DNA of 6,522 bases, taken from assembly GCA_027037705.1 (NCBI GenBank), contig JALVYZ010000407.1, positions 1-6,522 on the forward strand. Reading direction: 5' to 3'. Source of the stretch: a bacterium. Its GTDB lineage: Bacteria; DYJV01; JALVYZ01. Under the pieces are notes generated by a model. The model was not told where the DNA came from. It searched no databases and saw nothing but the letters and a program-made list of their open reading frames with translations. Numbering within the stretch: the first letter of the stretch is position 1; each line of letters begins with the position of its first letter. Made by a program: the position numbers and the translations under genes. This document shows positions 1,132-6,522 of the stretch, one piece after another.

Positions 1132-1166
1132 AAGGCTGAAGGTTGAAGGCGGAAGGTAGAAGTAAT
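1132..1166 (+). repeat. Heptamer array AAGGNNG directly after the RND stop codon
   Basis: Units aaggctg, aaggttg, aaggcgg and aaggtag, followed by the decayed aagtaat, start one base after the TGA at 1128-1130. This is the reverse complement of the CCTTCNN heptamers at 6227-6261 (shared stretch tgaaggcggaaggtagaag). Relative to the direction of transcription it therefore has the same orientation as the copies between the leftward genes. No hairpin is evident. Confidence 0.75.
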
Positions 1167-2658: not shown

Positions 2659-3357
2659 TCACACTAATATATACACTCCACTCAATATAATTAAACTTCC
2701 ACAAATCCTCTTTAAAATTAAAGTCCCTTTTGATTTTTCATTCCAGTTTAAATATCTTCTAACAATTTCTGTAAAAGTGCCAGCAAATACTATTACAGAA
2801 CAGTGACCAATTGCATATACAATTAAAAGTAAAATTCCAAATAAAAATTTTTTTGTTGAAACATTAAATATTACTGCTAATAATGGAGCAAGGTATGCAA
2901 AAGTGCAAGGACCTAAAGCTACACCAAAAATTATTCCAAGCAAAAAAGCAGCAAATATACCATTTCCTGACTTATTAAAAAAGGATGTTCCAAATGAAAA
3001 ATCTGGTAATTTTATAATTTCTATTAAATATAGCCCTATTAAAACAAATATTCCAGCTACAATTAAATTTCCTGTCTTTCCAATATCTCCAGCAATTCTC
3101 CCTGTTAGAGCAGTTATAAATCCTACAGCAATAATTGTTAAAAGTATTCCAATTGAAAAAATAAAAGAAATATAAAAAGCCTTCCTGGTTGAAACCTTTT
3201 CATGCTTATTCATAAATCCTACAATTAAAGGGATACTTGATAAATGGCATGGACTTAATAAAATGCTTAAAATTCCCCATAAAAATGCTGCAAAAAGTGA
3301 TAAAAATCCACTTTTGGATAATGAAGTAGAAACAAAGGTAAAGATATCAGCAATCAT
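2659..3357 (-). CDS. ccdA: CcdA/DsbD-type transmembrane thiol:disulfide electron carrier
   Basis: Inner-membrane protein of 232 aa, the usual CcdA size, expected to carry electrons from cytosolic thioredoxin to an extracytoplasmic thioredoxin-like partner. About six hydrophobic segments are visible. The two family cysteines are C37 in LLSPCHLSSIPLIVGF and C151 in FGVALGPCTFAYLAPLLAV, each in a Pro-Cys context within its membrane segment. A further cysteine sits in YAIGHCS (C186). The ATG overlaps the stop codon of the upstream thioredoxin-like gene in an ATGA at 3354-3357, and a GGAG lies 4 bases upstream of the start, so the two genes are probably translationally coupled. Context argues for feeding that thioredoxin rather than cytochrome c maturation, since no heme-handling genes are in view. 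The gene symbol is a family label, not proof of the classical role. Confidence 0.9.
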   Translation of the reverse strand: MIADIFTFVSTSLSKSGFLSLFAAFLWGILSILLSPCHLSSIPLIVGFMNKHEKVSTRKAFYISFIFSIGILLTIIAVGFITALTGRIAGDIGKTGNLIVAGIFVLIGLYLIEIIKLPDFSFGTSFFNKSGNGIFAAFLLGIIFGVALGPCTFAYLAPLLAVIFNVSTKKFLFGILLLIVYAIGHCSVIVFAGTFTEIVRRYLNWNEKSKGTLILKRICGSLIILSGVYILV

Positions 3358-3773
3358 TTGACTCCATACTTTCTAAAGATTTTTTCCACCTCTTCAAAGG
3401 GGATATATCCCTGATGACGGAAGAGTTCATTGCCATTTTTATCAAGTATAATTTGAGTGGGAATAACCTTAATTTTATACAGATATGCATAAGGTTTTCC
3501 TTCTTCAGTCCATACATCATAAAATAAAACTTTTACTTTTCCTTTATATTTTTCTCTAATTTTTTCCATAACAGGTTCCATCATTTTACAAGCTATACAT
3601 TTAACTGATCCAAGGTCAATAAAGGTAAGGATATAGTTATCATCTTTGGGAGTTTCAGTTTTTTTAATCTTACTCTTACTATTATTTTCATTTTTATTAT
3701 TACAGCCCTCCTGGAATGTTGAAATAAAGCATAATATTACGATAATAAAGATAATTTTTAAGTTAATTTTCAT
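3354..3773 (-). CDS. Thioredoxin-fold protein with N-terminal membrane signal, CxxC active site
   Basis: 139 aa. The start is the ATG at 3773: AAGGAGG (3778-3784) lies 4 bases before it, and a hydrophobic signal segment begins at once (residues 5-20, KIIFIIVILCFI). The open frame reaches further up to 3866, but those residues are translated repeat DNA. After the signal comes C24 in FQEGC, a poor match to a lipobox, so it may be a lipoprotein or simply membrane-anchored; a charged Asn/Lys/Glu linker follows to about residue 45. The thioredoxin domain (about 46-139) has the redox pair C59-I-A-C62 in SVKCIACKMMEP and the cis-proline P105 in KVIPTQIIL. It is expected to act outside the cytoplasmic membrane as the acceptor for the coupled CcdA-like protein downstream. 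Its target is unknown; the neighbouring genes make a metal(loid) or sulfur substrate plausible. Confidence 0.88.
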   Translation of the reverse strand: MKINLKIIFIIVILCFISTFQEGCNNKNENNSKSKIKKTETPKDDNYILTFIDLGSVKCIACKMMEPVMEKIREKYKGKVKVLFYDVWTEEGKPYAYLYKIKVIPTQIILDKNGNELFRHQGYIPFEEVEKIFRKYGVK

Positions 3774-3777
3774 ATTG

Positions 3778-3784
3778 CCTCCTT
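3778..3784 (-). promoter_or_regulatory. Shine-Dalgarno AAGGAGG fixing the thioredoxin start
   Basis: A near-perfect anti-16S match 4 bases before ATG 3773-3771. It decides for the short form of the protein over an upstream in-frame start at 3866. Confidence 0.85.
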
Positions 3785-3791
3785 TTTTATT

Positions 3792-3815
3792 ATGTGTAGA
3801 TGCGTAAATGCGATA
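3792..3815. repeat. Octamer array ATGCGTAG type, 3 units
   Basis: Units atgtgtag, atgcgtaa and atgcgata on the + strand, starting 7 bases beyond the thioredoxin Shine-Dalgarno site. Same family as the long array at 6126-6187 and the worn one at 4551-4574; in all three gaps this octamer is the repeat closest to the gene start. Confidence 0.8.
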
Positions 3816-3860
3816 ATTGTTATTAGTTGTAATTAGTAGTAATTTGTAGTAATTTATTGT
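3816..3860. repeat. Decamer array (AATTAGTAGT type), about 4-5 units
   Basis: Successive 10-base units tattagttgt, aattagtagt, aatttgtagt and aatttattgt follow the octamer array. The period of 10 is clear. This unit is not seen in the other two gaps, where the 100-base block occupies the corresponding place. Confidence 0.7.
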
Positions 3861-3869
3861 TATCAACTA

Positions 3870-3897
3870 TTCACCGTTCACGGTTCACGGTTCTATA
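3870..3897. repeat. Heptamer array TTCACGG, 3-4 units
   Basis: Units ttcaccg, ttcacgg and ttcacgg, then the decayed ttctata. It belongs with the TTCACTA heptamers at 4688-4708 and 6307-6341, which sit at the matching place in the other gaps. Confidence 0.8.
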
Positions 3898-3900
3898 ATA

Positions 3901-3960
3901 TCAACTAACCTCAACTAACAACTAACTAACTTTAACTAACCTCCAACTAACCTTCAATCA
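3901..3960. repeat. 10-11-base repeat array (TCAACTAACC type), about 6 units
   Basis: Units built on AACTAACC with 2-3 variable bases between: tcaactaacc, tcaactaac, tttaactaacc and tccaactaacc, ending in ttcaatcaa. The same unit recurs at 4763-4806 and 6343-6382. Here it ends about 48 bases from the stop of the 48-aa gene. Confidence 0.85.
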
Positions 3961-4008
3961 ATATCTAAATTCCGGTATATTTGCTCCCCTGAGCTCAAAA
4001 ACAGGCTT

Positions 4009-4155
4009 TCATTTTTCTTTAGTTGCATCTAACATCTTTTTTTTAAAAACATTCATCATAAATTTCAAAGCTTCTTTTTCATCCTTATCAGATATAATTC
4101 TTTCTGCCTCTATTATTTCATTTAATGAAAAAATAATCGAATATTTATCCTTCAT
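4009..4155 (-). CDS. Small protein of 48 aa, unrecognised, overlapping the DGC gene
   Basis: Translates to 48 residues beginning MKDKYSIIFSLNEIIEAERI and ending KKKMLDATKEK, stop TGA at 4011-4009. GGAGG (4165-4169) lies 9 bases before the ATG, inside the end of the DGC gene, and the first 11 bases of this gene overlap that gene's last codons and stop; such an overlap usually means translational coupling. The sequence is highly charged and looks alpha-helical (EIIEAERIISDKDEKEALKF), with no membrane segment and no cysteine. I do not recognise the family. The opening YSIIFSLNEIIEAE faintly recalls the start of DUF3343-like small proteins, but the rest does not follow. It is probably cytosolic and made together with the DGC protein. 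Confidence 0.72.
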   Translation of the reverse strand: MKDKYSIIFSLNEIIEAERIISDKDEKEALKFMMNVFKKKMLDATKEK

Positions 4156-4525
4156 TTAATTTTTCCTCCACCTTTTTTAAGGTTTCATCTATTAATTCTT
4201 TGCCTAATCTTAAATCGTGATTTTTAGTTACTCCTAACTCTGTAATTCTAATATGTTTTGTAAATTTCAAATTCTTTTCTTCAAGAGTTTTTTTAGCACA
4301 GTCAAGCTGACATCCATCAATTACTATAATATTATCTGCAGATTCTGTTGATTTTACAATCCCAGACACATTTCCTCCAATTCCTGCGAGGCAGAATAAC
4401 TTTCCAGTTCCTTTTTCTGTTAAAATTATTCCTATTTCATTTGAAAGCTGGCCAACATTTGAGCCTCCAGCGCACGCAAAAATTAAAGTAGTTGTTGTTT
4501 CACAACAGCAACTATTGTTTTGCAT
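4145..4525 (-). CDS. DGC-domain protein, putative zinc/metal-binding
   Basis: 126 aa, cytosolic. The start is ATG 4525 because AGGAGG (4532-4537) ends 6 bases before it; an ATG five codons earlier (4540) lies upstream of that site. The protein matches the DGC family by its name motif, here VIDGCQLDCA (residues 68-77; C72, C76), and by FACAGGSNVGQLS (C18) and KLFCLAGIGG (C45). The N-terminus adds three consecutive cysteines (C6-C8), giving seven cysteines in the first 80 residues and suggesting metal or metalloid-thiol binding. The biochemical role of the family is not established. Proteins of this kind are, to my knowledge, often encoded near COG0701 permeases and thioredoxins, as here. The next gene starts inside its 3' end. 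Confidence 0.9.
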   Translation of the reverse strand: MQNNSCCCETTTTLIFACAGGSNVGQLSNEIGIILTEKGTGKLFCLAGIGGNVSGIVKSTESADNIIVIDGCQLDCAKKTLEEKNLKFTKHIRITELGVTKNHDLRLGKELIDETLKKVEEKLNEG

Positions 4526-4531
4526 TTTAAA

Positions 4532-4537
4532 CCTCCT
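4532..4537 (-). promoter_or_regulatory. Shine-Dalgarno AGGAGG fixing the DGC start
   Basis: It lies 6 bases before ATG 4525-4523. An alternative ATG at 4540-4538 sits immediately upstream of the site and would have no ribosome-binding site of its own, so the 126-aa form is preferred over 131 aa. Confidence 0.8.
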
Positions 4538-4550
4538 CATTTTATTGTAT

Positions 4551-4574
4551 AAACGTAAATACGTTGATGCTTGT
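4551..4574. repeat. Degenerate octamer array near the DGC gene start
   Basis: Worn 8-base units aaacgtaa, atacgttg and atgcttgt, in the same register as the ATGCGTAG octamers at 6126-6187. It begins 13 bases beyond the DGC Shine-Dalgarno site. The call depends mainly on its matching position in the other gaps. Confidence 0.5.
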
Positions 4575-4580
4575 AACTAA

Positions 4581-4680
4581 TTTGAATTTTGGATTTTGAA
4601 TTAAAATTTTCCTTTATCATTCTTTCTTTCATCTTCAGCCTTAAAATTAGTGTTGGTGTTAGTGATGGTGTTAGTTTTTA
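4581..4680. repeat. 100-base composite repeat, copy 1
   Basis: Aligns without gaps to 6200-6299 with 8 mismatches, all within its middle 25 bases (4605-4628). It contains heptamers (ttttgaa, ttttgga, ttttgaa), a worn CCTTCNN section, and hexamers of TTAGTG type at 4647-4676 (ttagtg, ttggtg, ttagtg, atggtg). It has no terminal inverted repeats and no coding capacity. Confidence 0.9.
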
Positions 4681-4687
4681 AAAATTT

Positions 4688-4708
4688 TTCACTTTTCACT
4701 ATTCATTT
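4688..4708. repeat. Heptamer array TTCACTA, 3 units
   Basis: Units ttcactt, ttcacta and ttcattt directly follow the 100-base block, as ttcatta, ttcattt and ttcacta do after the second copy of that block. Confidence 0.75.
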
Positions 4709-4722
4709 TCATTTATACTAAC

Positions 4723-4757
4723 GACTCCCGACTCCGCACTCCAGACTCCACACTATT
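4723..4757. repeat. Heptamer array GACTCCC, 5 units
   Basis: Units gactccc, gactccg, cactcca, gactcca and cactatt in perfect 7-base register. The same family occurs at 6464-6498 and is among the most GC-rich non-coding sequence in the window. Confidence 0.85.
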
Positions 4758-4762
4758 ATTCC

Positions 4763-4806
4763 CTCAACTAACCTCAATAACCTTAACTAACCTTTAACTA
4801 ACCTCC
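4763..4806. repeat. 10-base repeat array (CTCAACTAAC type) ending 5 bases from the permease stop
   Basis: Units ctcaactaac, ctcaataac, cttaactaac and ctttaactaac. Same family as 3901-3960 and 6343-6382. It lies almost directly against the 3' end of the permease gene (stop TAG at 4814-4812), leaving no room for an ordinary terminator between them. Confidence 0.85.
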
Positions 4807-4811
4807 TAATC

Positions 4812-6110
4812 CTACCCCACAATCTTCCCAAAAATCATTCCTGATATAGTTGCCATAATAACAACTAATGACACATATGCTACAGTCTTTTTTGTTCCCA
4901 TTACACTTCTTATAACAAGCATATTTGGTAGTGATAATGCTGGTCCAGCCAATAAAAGAGCCAAAGCTGGTCCTTTTCCCATTCCATTTGCAAGCAAGCC
5001 CTGTAAAATTGGGACCTCTGTTAATGTTGCAAAATACATAAATGCTCCTGCAACAGATGCAAATAGATTTGCTCCAAGGGAATTCCCTCCAACCATTGTT
5101 GAAATCCATCTTGATGGAATTATTCCACCATCTGTTGAATCTGGAGTTCCAAGACAGAAACCTGCAATTAACACACCAATTCCAAGTAGAGGTAATATCA
5201 TTTTAGATAAATCATAAGTCTGGAAAAACCAGTCCTTCATATCATCTCCAGAAAGATTCAACACAATTGATAAGGTAATTGCACCTATTCCAAATGGAAT
5301 CATTGGGTTTTTAAAAAGAAATGCTGCAATTATTACAGGAATTGTAGCTAATACGAGATGAAGTAATTTTATCCCATACCAAAGAATAAGTGTTATTCCA
5401 AGCAAAATAGCAAAAATTGTAGTTAATATCCATTTATTGGAATAGATTTCATACCATAAACCAGTATGTGAAATTGGTTTTCCCCAATTAGCAAATACTA
5501 AAATGGCAATCATAAATAAGAAGTAAAGTATTGTTTGCCAAATTGGTCTTGCCTCTTCAGTTTCTCCTATGAAAAGTCCACCTTTTTTATCAATATCCTC
5601 TTTAAAAATTATCTCCATTAAAATCCCAATTACAACACTGAAAAGAATAGCTCCAATAGCTCTTGCAATTCCAAGTTGATAGCCTAAAATTCTTGCAGTT
5701 AAAATAATTGCAAGAACATTGATCGCAGGACCAGAGTATAGAAATGCAGTTGCAGGTCCAAGTCCAGCTCCTCTTCTGTAAATGCCTGTAAATAATGGTA
5801 GAACTGTGCATGAGCAAACTGCTAAAATAGAACCAGAGATTGAAGCAACTGAATATGCAATTATTTTATTTGCCTGAGCACCAAGATATTTCATTACAGA
5901 TTGCTGGGATACAAATACAGCAATTGCTCCTGCAATGAAAAATGCTGGAACAAGGCATAATATAACATGCTCTCTTGCATACCACCTTAATAATTTCAAA
6001 CTTTCAAAAATAGCATTCTGAAATCTCTTATATTCAAGTGGAAGATTGTAACAAATTATGAAAACTATGAACATAATTAAAATATTTTTCAAAATTTGTT
6101 TCATGTTCAT
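4812..6110 (-). CDS. COG0701/DUF318 (ArsP-type) permease
   Basis: Polytopic inner-membrane permease of 432 aa. The family includes ArsP exporters of trivalent organoarsenicals, but most members have no known substrate. The start ATG at 6110 is set by AAAGGAG (6118-6124) 7 bases upstream; an ATG two codons later is less well placed. Hydrophobic segments are visible throughout, with a hydrophilic loop at about 168-190 between the two halves. The first half carries AVCSCTVLPLF (97-107; C99, C101) and GAGLGPATAFLYSGPAIN (114-131). The second half carries the matching pattern EVPILQGLLANGMGKGPAL (365-383) then LAGPALSLPN (387-396), the internal repeat typical of the family. GVLIAGFCLGTPDS (312-325) adds C319. 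It is the first visible gene of the leftward cluster with the DGC, thioredoxin-like and CcdA-like genes, which suggests transport linked to thiol chemistry. Arsenic specificity is not shown. Confidence 0.92.
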   Translation of the reverse strand: MNMKQILKNILIMFIVFIICYNLPLEYKRFQNAIFESLKLLRWYAREHVILCLVPAFFIAGAIAVFVSQQSVMKYLGAQANKIIAYSVASISGSILAVCSCTVLPLFTGIYRRGAGLGPATAFLYSGPAINVLAIILTARILGYQLGIARAIGAILFSVVIGILMEIIFKEDIDKKGGLFIGETEEARPIWQTILYFLFMIAILVFANWGKPISHTGLWYEIYSNKWILTTIFAILLGITLILWYGIKLLHLVLATIPVIIAAFLFKNPMIPFGIGAITLSIVLNLSGDDMKDWFFQTYDLSKMILPLLGIGVLIAGFCLGTPDSTDGGIIPSRWISTMVGGNSLGANLFASVAGAFMYFATLTEVPILQGLLANGMGKGPALALLLAGPALSLPNMLVIRSVMGTKKTVAYVSLVVIMATISGMIFGKIVG

Positions 6111-6125
6111 TTTTTTACTCCTTTA

Positions 6126-6187
6126 ATGTGTTAATGCGTAGATGCGTAGATGCGTAGATGCGTAAATGAGTGAATGCATGTATGCGG
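6126..6187. repeat. Octamer array ATGCGTAG, nearly 8 units
   Basis: In 8-base register: atgtgtta, atgcgtag three times, then atgcgtaa, atgagtga, atgcatgt and atgcgg. Three central units are identical and the edges are worn. It starts one base beyond the permease Shine-Dalgarno site (6118-6124), so any transcript starting further upstream would carry it as its last 5' leader segment. Confidence 0.92.
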
Positions 6188-6199
6188 TTAAATAATAAT

Positions 6200-6299
6200 T
6201 TTGAATTTTGGATTTTGAATTAAAATTTTCCTTCATCCTTCTACCTTCCGCCTTCATCCTTAAAATTAGTGTTGGTGTTAGTGATGGTGTTAGTTTTTA
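6200..6299. repeat. 100-base composite repeat, copy 2
   Basis: Partner of 4581-4680 (92 of 100 identical, no gaps). This copy keeps a clear 7-base register from 6199 to about 6261: ttttgaa, ttttgga, ttttgaa, ttaaaat, tttcctt, catcctt, ctacctt, ccgcctt, catcctt. TTAGTG-type hexamers follow at 6266-6295. Copy 1 has lost the register in the middle. Confidence 0.92.
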
Positions 6300-6306
6300 T
6301 CATTTT

Positions 6307-6341
6307 TTCATTATTCATTTTTCACTATTCACTATTCACAA
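6307..6341. repeat. Heptamer array TTCACTA, 5 units
   Basis: Units ttcatta, ttcattt, ttcacta, ttcacta and ttcacaa, in register, directly after the 100-base block. Confidence 0.85.
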
Positions 6342-6342
6342 C

Positions 6343-6382
6343 ATCAACTAACATTAACTAACCTCAACTAACTTCAACTAAC
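6343..6382. repeat. Decamer array NTCAACTAAC, 4 units
   Basis: Units atcaactaac, attaactaac, ctcaactaac and ttcaactaac in exact 10-base register, differing only in the first three bases. Confidence 0.9.
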
Positions 6383-6386
6383 ATTC

Positions 6387-6414
6387 TATAGCCCATAGCC
6401 CAGTGCCTATAGCC
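6387..6414. repeat. Heptamer array TATAGCC, 4 units
   Basis: Units tatagcc, catagcc, cagtgcc and tatagcc. This family appears only here in the window. Confidence 0.8.
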
Positions 6415-6427
6415 CATTTATCAATTT

Positions 6428-6455
6428 TTCATTTTTCATTATTAATTATTCATTA
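6428..6455. repeat. Heptamer array TTCATTA, 4 units
   Basis: Units ttcattt, ttcatta, ttaatta and ttcatta in 7-base register; an AT-rich variant of the TTCACTA family. Confidence 0.65.
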
Positions 6456-6463
6456 ATTTTATT

Positions 6464-6498
6464 TGCTCCAGACTCTGCACTCCCGACTCCCGACTATT
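6464..6498. repeat. Heptamer array GACTCCC, 5 units
   Basis: Units tgctcca, gactctg, cactccc, gactccc and gactatt. Second copy of the family at 4723-4757; both end in a unit reading nactatt. Confidence 0.85.
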
Positions 6499-6522
6499 TT
6501 TTCCCCAATCTCATTTTTCACA

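Follow-up and report, generated by a model that had tools for sequence, protein, structure and literature searches.

What are the many short tandem arrays that fill the spaces between genes in this contig, and do they follow any rule? The window, by which we mean the whole 6,522-nucleotide stretch analysed (JALVYZ010000407.1 of assembly GCA_027037705.1; contig C407 of the genome referred to here as G000), contains three minus-strand gaps (Gaps I, II and III) made up mostly of tandem arrays with periods of 7, 8, 10 and 6/12. A preliminary description, made from the letters alone, treated positions 3792-6498 as intergenic DNA built of such arrays. This holds for the three gaps, of which arrays do form the bulk, but not for the range as a whole, since the genes for a DGC-domain protein and an ArsP_1 permease lie inside it. 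Every array family it named was recovered by Tandem Repeats Finder, which was used to call the window arrays. We put the chances at about even that the arrays make up an intercistronic mRNA element, mosaic and dispersed, that resembles repetitive extragenic palindromic (REP) sequences in its action, lengthens by slippage and multiplies by copying. Its anatomy is well supported by the comparisons below, from which we infer its function.

The arrays were counted, without overlap and against dinucleotide shuffles as the expectation, in 68 contigs of G000 (580 kb, GC 28%), many of them picked for matching array patterns and 30 picked blind. Gap DNA (40.5 kb) held 243 arrays versus 39.7 expected, particularly those of period 7 (69 versus 4.7), period 8 (35 versus 4.5) and period 10 (33 versus 6.4), with the multiples 14, 16, 20, 21 and 24 likewise raised, whereas coding DNA favoured periods 9, 12 and 15 instead. 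The preliminary description would have given up a general system had arrays occurred only at this locus or had period 7 been no commoner than other periods. They occur genome-wide and are confined to gaps, period 7 dominates there too, and shared unit families turn up throughout G000, nearly all between genes. The blind contigs (n = 30) show a smaller excess, 27 arrays versus 10.8, with period 7 still first (8 versus 2.0); array density is uneven and the pattern-chosen contigs overstate it. Array-free contigs tend to have lower coding GC (GC versus array gaps, r = 0.48), and part of the patchiness could be due to binning. Among gaps of at least 40 bp, 68 of the 158 co-directional ones carried arrays, compared with 5 of the 44 divergent and 3 of the 12 convergent ones. 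Co-directional and divergent gaps differ (Fisher p = 7e-5), whereas co-directional and convergent gaps do not differ significantly; the blind contigs alone (6/42 co-directional versus 1/13 divergent array gaps) gave no significant difference.

The arrays had been described as unrelated sequences set end to end; instead, their order and direction with respect to transcription are constant, and some gaps carry cognate, complementary arrays on their two sides. This strand rule was first seen with gaps oriented by C>G, which could have produced an artefact; it held when unit families were defined explicitly and gaps were oriented by gene strand. In mRNA sense, the stop-codon side carries GTTAGTT, GGAGT, GAAGG, GTGAA, AATGAA and GGGCTAT (upstream, G-type arrays with units GTTAGTTNNN, GGAGTNN, GAAGGNN, GTGAANN and GGGCTAT), and the start-codon side carries CACTAAC (CACTAACACC), AATAAC, TTCAAAAT and CGCAT (downstream, C/A-type arrays with units CACTAACACC, AACTAATAAC, TTCAAAAT and CGCATNNN). 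Sense to antisense counts were 69:9 for GGAGT, 29:2 for GAAGG, 22:1 for GTTAGTT and 15:0 for both GTGAA and AATGAA among the upstream families, and 50:1 for CACTAA, 59:0 for AATAAC and 12:0 for TTCAAAAT among the downstream ones. Direction was kept in contigs added after the rule was framed (GGAGT 21:4, GAAGG 8:0, CACTAA 5:0, AATAAC 9:0), a check covering five families with counts of at least 4. Overall, 46 gaps were canonical in orientation, 3 reverse and 2 tied. Where the flanking genes run against the majority strand of their contig, 7/7 gaps were canonical, hence orientation follows transcription and not the contig majority strand.

The first array begins a median of ~9 nt after the stop codon, and in many gaps the element spans from a few bases past that codon to ~20-40 bases before the next start codon. 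Array gaps have 28% G and 8% C in their first half and 18% C and 11% G in their second, with G exceeding C in the 5' half of 63/65 gaps; the halves of array-free gaps are alike (G 16% and C 11%, then G 15% and C 11%). At the level of sequence, the position between stop codon and Shine-Dalgarno (SD) motif, the rarity in divergent gaps and the family-wise sense orientation are thereby documented.

The window illustrates this order. Read in mRNA sense, Gap I runs through GTTAGTT decamers, GTGAACC heptamers, AATTAC/AATAAC decamers and CGCAT octamers to the SD motif, and Gap II through GTTAGTT decamers, GGAGT heptamers, GTGAA/AATGAA, CACTAACACC hexamers and TTCAAAAT heptamers, again to an SD motif. 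The arrays, with the gaps and the genes that border them, are as follows.

1132-1162, plus strand: GAAGGNN heptamers directly 3' of the RND gene stop codon, with sense and side as elsewhere; absent from the preliminary description
3357-3776, minus strand: thioredoxin-like gene, bordering Gap I
3777-4007, minus strand: Gap I, between the short open reading frame (4008-4155) and the thioredoxin-like gene
3796-3818, minus strand: CGCAT octamer array (plus strand ATGCGTAAATGCG), start-codon side
3819-3862, minus strand: AATTAC/AATAAC decamer array (plus strand TTAGTAGTAAT; Tandem Repeats Finder unit ATTAGTAGTA, called at 3822-3854)
3870-3893, minus strand: GTGAACC heptamer array (plus strand TTCACGG)
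3902-3957, minus strand: GTTAGTTNNN (GTTAGTT) decamer array (plus strand AACTAACC), stop-codon side
4008-4155, minus strand: short open reading frame, the other border of Gap I
4145-4540, minus strand: DGC-domain protein gene (protein placed at 4148-4525), bordering Gap II
4541-4811, minus strand: Gap II, between the ArsP_1 permease and DGC genes
4581-4602, minus strand: TTCAAAAT heptamer array (TTTTGAA on the plus strand), also newly found
4647-4675, minus strand: CACTAA/CACCAA/CACCAT hexamer array, called as a 12-mer, TTAGTG/TTGGTG
4723-4754, minus strand: GGAGTNN heptamer array (plus strand ACTCCNN)
4762-4805, minus strand: GTTAGTTNNN decamer array (plus strand AACTAACC)
4812-6110, minus strand: ArsP_1 permease gene (protein placed at 4815-6110), between Gaps II and III
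6111-6500, minus strand: Gap III, upstream of the ArsP_1 permease gene, truncated by the contig end; holds most known modules
6134-6177, minus strand: CGCAT octamer array (plus strand ATGCGTAG, called by Tandem Repeats Finder at 6134-6168), start-codon side
6197-6221, minus strand: TTCAAAAT heptamer array (TTTTGAA on the plus strand), likewise newly found
6229-6261, minus strand: GAAGGNN heptamer array (plus strand CCTTCNN)
6266-6294, minus strand: CACTAA/CACCAA hexamer array, called as a 12-mer, TTAGTG/TTGGTG
6307-6339, minus strand: GTGAATA heptamer array (plus strand TTCACTA)
6340-6384, minus strand: GTTAGTTNNN decamer array (plus strand AACTAACC)
6388-6417, minus strand: GGGCTAT heptamer array (plus strand ATAGCCC)
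6472-6495, minus strand: GGAGTCG heptamer array (plus strand ACTCCCG, called by Tandem Repeats Finder at 6479-6495), stop-codon side

Some gaps elsewhere in G000 consist wholly of two cognate arrays, including L025:15879-15967 (GGAGT..ACTCC), L104:2596-2736 (ATGCG..CGCAT) and L109:4205-4317 (GAAGG..CCTTC), with RNA fold z of -5 to -6; as single-stranded DNA the first two reach -4.9 and -5.5, respectively. In these hairpins the conserved 5-base cores are paired and the variable 2-3-base spacers form internal loops. Cognate arms paired better than shuffles (mean z -3.8 for GGAGT, -2.9 for ATGCG, ~-3.6 for GAAGG and GGGCTAT), with z < -2 in 6/9 GGAGT and 11/14 ATGCG (octamer) candidates, and non-cognate combinations gave z of ~0. 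Across gaps, the 5' and 3' halves of one gap paired better with each other than swapped halves did, by 6.4 kcal/mol (permutation sd 1.0); the advantage was still 4.4 kcal/mol without the gaps that have same-family arms, and a weaker 1.6 in array-free gaps. GTTAGTT and CACTAAC arms pair slightly (mean z -1.2; Gap II -2.4, Gap III -1.8). Pairing is hence a property of a subset of gaps, and those in the window (whole-gap fold z of -1.73, marginal, for Gap I, +0.67 for Gap II and -0.79 for Gap III) are largely unpaired mosaics with GTTAGTT/CACTAAC pairing only, not clean hairpins. Anti-pairing of spacers was weak at best. On the sense strand, the hairpins of array gaps are followed by A-rich DNA and an SD motif, not a T run; the pattern of an intrinsic terminator (a G+C-rich hairpin plus sense-strand T run) occurred at 2 sites versus 1.6 expected, both on the plus strand and within a gene. 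No Rfam model reached its gathering score against the window.

Gaps also share sequence. A BLAST comparison among 190 gaps linked 85 of them by shared cassettes, the best pairs having 60-250 bp in common at ~77-96% identity, and a stretch of ~140 bp is common to Gaps II and III (86% identity). Same-sense hits numbered 861 versus 184 of opposite sense, orientation being arbitrary for divergent and convergent gaps. Judged by these matches, the gaps are mosaics of related cassettes. A second dispersed hairpin, CCGAGCACCT..AGGTGCTCGG, not built of arrays, lies within several array gaps (L021:385-600, L114:4449-4772, L110:705-949), and one gap (L022:588-1455) contains an apparent insertion-sequence remnant resembling a transposase OrfA.

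Among the matches listed, arrays of four GGAGTNN units come from many phyla, cyanobacteria above all; they are long, uniform and present in all gap types, and in co-directional gaps they are strand-neutral (20 antisense : 19 sense among the matches listed). A genome of the same order as G000 (G001) is almost array-free, with 12 arrays versus 8 in shuffles over 87 kb. Over 290 genomes, the GGAGT-armed hairpin pattern matched only G000 and the unrelated G171, a 1.8 Mb genome with 42% GC, and the reversed pattern had no matches. In the 191 kb of G171 examined, hairpins fill gaps between co-directional genes with arms that are arrays of many other heptamer (or 8-mer) units, and helices and mismatches alternate regularly (L305:3769-3850, L307:3650-3731, L308:8628-8701, L309:9946-10050, L312:19491-19576); in the first of these, AGGTGTT..AACCT, helices of 4-6 bp are interrupted by a single mismatch every 7 nt (z -6.1). 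The G-type half came first in 13/16 array gaps of G171 versus 18/40 array-free gaps. Hairpins in other taxa were GGAGT..ACTCC in 10 cases and ACTCC..GGAGT in 0 (L152, L158, L160, L171, L179, L196, L204, L208, L214, L223); as this G-first rule is the same on both strands, we do not take it as a sign of coupling to transcription. One idea is that the rule arises from avoiding SD-like and ATG words before start codons, against which counts the absence of ATG avoidance before the start codon in array-free gaps.

An intercistronic mRNA element could bring these observations together as follows. Array length would change through slippage, and cassettes may spread by recombination or gene conversion. 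The elements would then act as structured or repetitive spacers filling the ribosome-free RNA between cistrons of polycistronic mRNA, where they may slow 3'-5' decay and insulate cistrons, much like the hairpins of REP elements and bacterial interspersed mosaic elements (BIMEs), while leaving the SD region open. REP elements are rare in divergent (promoter-only) gaps, and so are the arrays of G000. RNase III is present.

Several results weigh against this account. Most array gaps, including two of the three in the window, fold no better than shuffles as wholes, and GTTAGTT/AATAAC pairing, hinted at by one fold, did not exceed that of shuffled arms. Folding is as good on the antisense strand (z -2.9) as on the sense strand (z -2.4; p = 0.18), so selection for pairing at the RNA level is not demonstrated, and RNA and DNA hairpins are told apart only by position and family orientation. 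Covariation is slight, with 2 of 18 pairs showing a pair-keeping double change in 7 aligned GGAGT hairpins, and swapping arms within one family costs no pairing. Furthermore, the copies are related by descent, so the gap statistics are not over independent events. Sense-specific RNA folding through G-U pairs was looked for and not found.

The arrays may instead be neutral debris without function, expanded by slippage, inverted by template-switch copying and spread by gene conversion, with the sense bias reflecting the sites that tolerate insertions, which exclude start signals. We regard this as possible, if rather less than probable. Uneven density between contigs, the many unpaired mosaics and the strand neutrality of GGAGT arrays in other taxa are all consistent with it, as is the widespread bacterial heptamer excess that Mrazek (2007), as cited in PMC4679880, ascribes to polymerase slippage. 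It does not account for family-fixed sense and side, and tolerance alone does not predict the bias given that array-free gaps show no ATG avoidance. Template switching would, moreover, have copied spacers along with cores, but pairing is no stronger between a gap's own arms than between arms swapped within a family, which also led us to reject fold-back copying as the source of the arms. A dedicated template-copying enzyme, reverse-transcriptase or telomerase-like, had been raised in the preliminary description; the regular periods alone speak for it, spacers vary within arrays, and no reverse-transcriptase domain (RVT_1) was found in G000, G171 or G001, which makes it the least credible explanation considered.

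Non-autonomous mobile elements, similar to miniature inverted-repeat transposable elements (MITEs) or REP doublets forming hairpins (REPINs), in which the terminal arms are tandem arrays by chance, would explain both the dispersed cassettes in many gaps and the inverted-repeat anatomy. We consider them improbable, as the elements lack constant ends, their boundaries tracking the stop codon and the next start codon and not target-site duplications, and no RAYT transposase (Y1_Tnp, PF01797) was found in G000 (92.8% complete) or G171, while control genomes matched. About equally doubtful is a set of repeated RNA-protein binding sites (Csr-like GGA, TRAP-like NAG or those of a dedicated regulator) in which spacing matters and not pairing. 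The sense-strand recurrence of GGA or UAG at 7- or 10-nt intervals fits such sites, whereas at least 8 unrelated unit families share the same position, cognate complementary arms exist and TRAP sites are spaced ~5 nt. Binding of S1, Csp or CsrA has been proposed by MacGregor for the TAACTGA repeats (PMC4679880). A replication-strand effect, with arrays oriented to the leading strand and only apparently tied to genes, is very unlikely; genes and replication are often co-directional, but the arrays followed local gene direction in all seven informative minority-strand gaps.

Comparison with known systems places the proposed intercistronic element near several of them. The short tandemly repeated repetitive (STRR) heptamers of cyanobacteria (PMC4692102), to which the preliminary description likened the arrays, share with them period 7, intergenic location, several units, variable copy number and genome-wide scatter. 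The period-7 excess in intergenic DNA bears this likeness out as regards period and location; G-rich heptamers GGGGA(C/T)T/GGGAATC are reported from Nostoc and Xanthomonas (PMC4692102). Unlike GGAGT arrays in the mostly cyanobacterial loci elsewhere, which show no strand or gap-type preference, those of G000 have fixed order, sense and side, and are joined by periods 8, 10 and 6/12. Several units side by side, called unusual in the preliminary description, have a precedent in the mixed heptamers of Microcystis (PMC4679880). In the P6b stem-loop of the Nostoc tRNA-Leu(UAA) intron, the stem is built on TDNGATT or NNTGAGT heptamers (PMC4476775). It resembles the hairpins here in having heptamer-array arms, interchangeable repeat classes that give one structure and mutations mostly at unpaired positions, but is a single intron locus, whereas G000 has many intercistronic gaps and many unit families; stems with cognate arms, paired cores and free spacers occur in a subset of these gaps and not in Gaps II and III as wholes.

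The TAACTGA direct repeats of marine Beggiatoaceae are forward-oriented intergenic heptamers near start codons (PMC4679880), alike in location, orientation, possible post-transcriptional role and scattered phylogeny. They differ in having a single unit without a cognate partner array right at the ribosome-binding site, whereas the modules of G000 take up the entire gap. REP/BIME and REPIN sequences (PMC3116915; PMC12306157) are likewise dispersed extragenic hairpins with a possible effect on mRNA decay, and the placement of the G000 elements fits a hairpin of this type located between cistrons or where transcripts end; G000 differs in having no RAYT found and no conserved palindrome, its arms being tandem arrays, and without a RAYT membership of the REP class fails on the transposase. 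No paper found in the open-licence literature describes elements that fill gaps, keep their order and sense, and have arms of cognate arrays in several families.

A broader and more tentative proposal, which we think somewhat unlikely, is that hairpins with array arms between cistrons form a general class of bacterial mRNA element that has arisen repeatedly. Unrelated lineages would build long stems with regular mismatches from any available 7-10-base unit, always placing the G-type arm first, and would thereby give structure to intercistronic RNA. If so, the bacterial heptamer excess would be partly a footprint of such stems and not of polymerase slippage alone. That excess in gaps has long been known with slippage as its main explanation, and intercistronic RNA elements offer a concrete, testable rival: the arrays keep their sense, side and order with respect to genes, and arms of cognate arrays occur in two genomes that are not related. 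Simple computational signatures for genome screens are the sense bias, the matching of arms and the leading G-type arm.

The source genome is a 2.05 Mb draft in 496 contigs, with 3.3% contamination. On the plus strand the window carries a partial gene for an RND (ACR_tran) transporter; a DUF4143 ATPase is also encoded (1408-2526), its frame ending at 2256 and an apparent C-terminal part following in another frame at 2344-2526, hence either a frameshifted pseudogene or a sequencing error. The minus-strand genes for a DsbD-like membrane protein, the thioredoxin-like protein, the DGC-domain protein and the ArsP_1 permease form a cluster at 2662-6110, possibly a single redox/metalloid operon.

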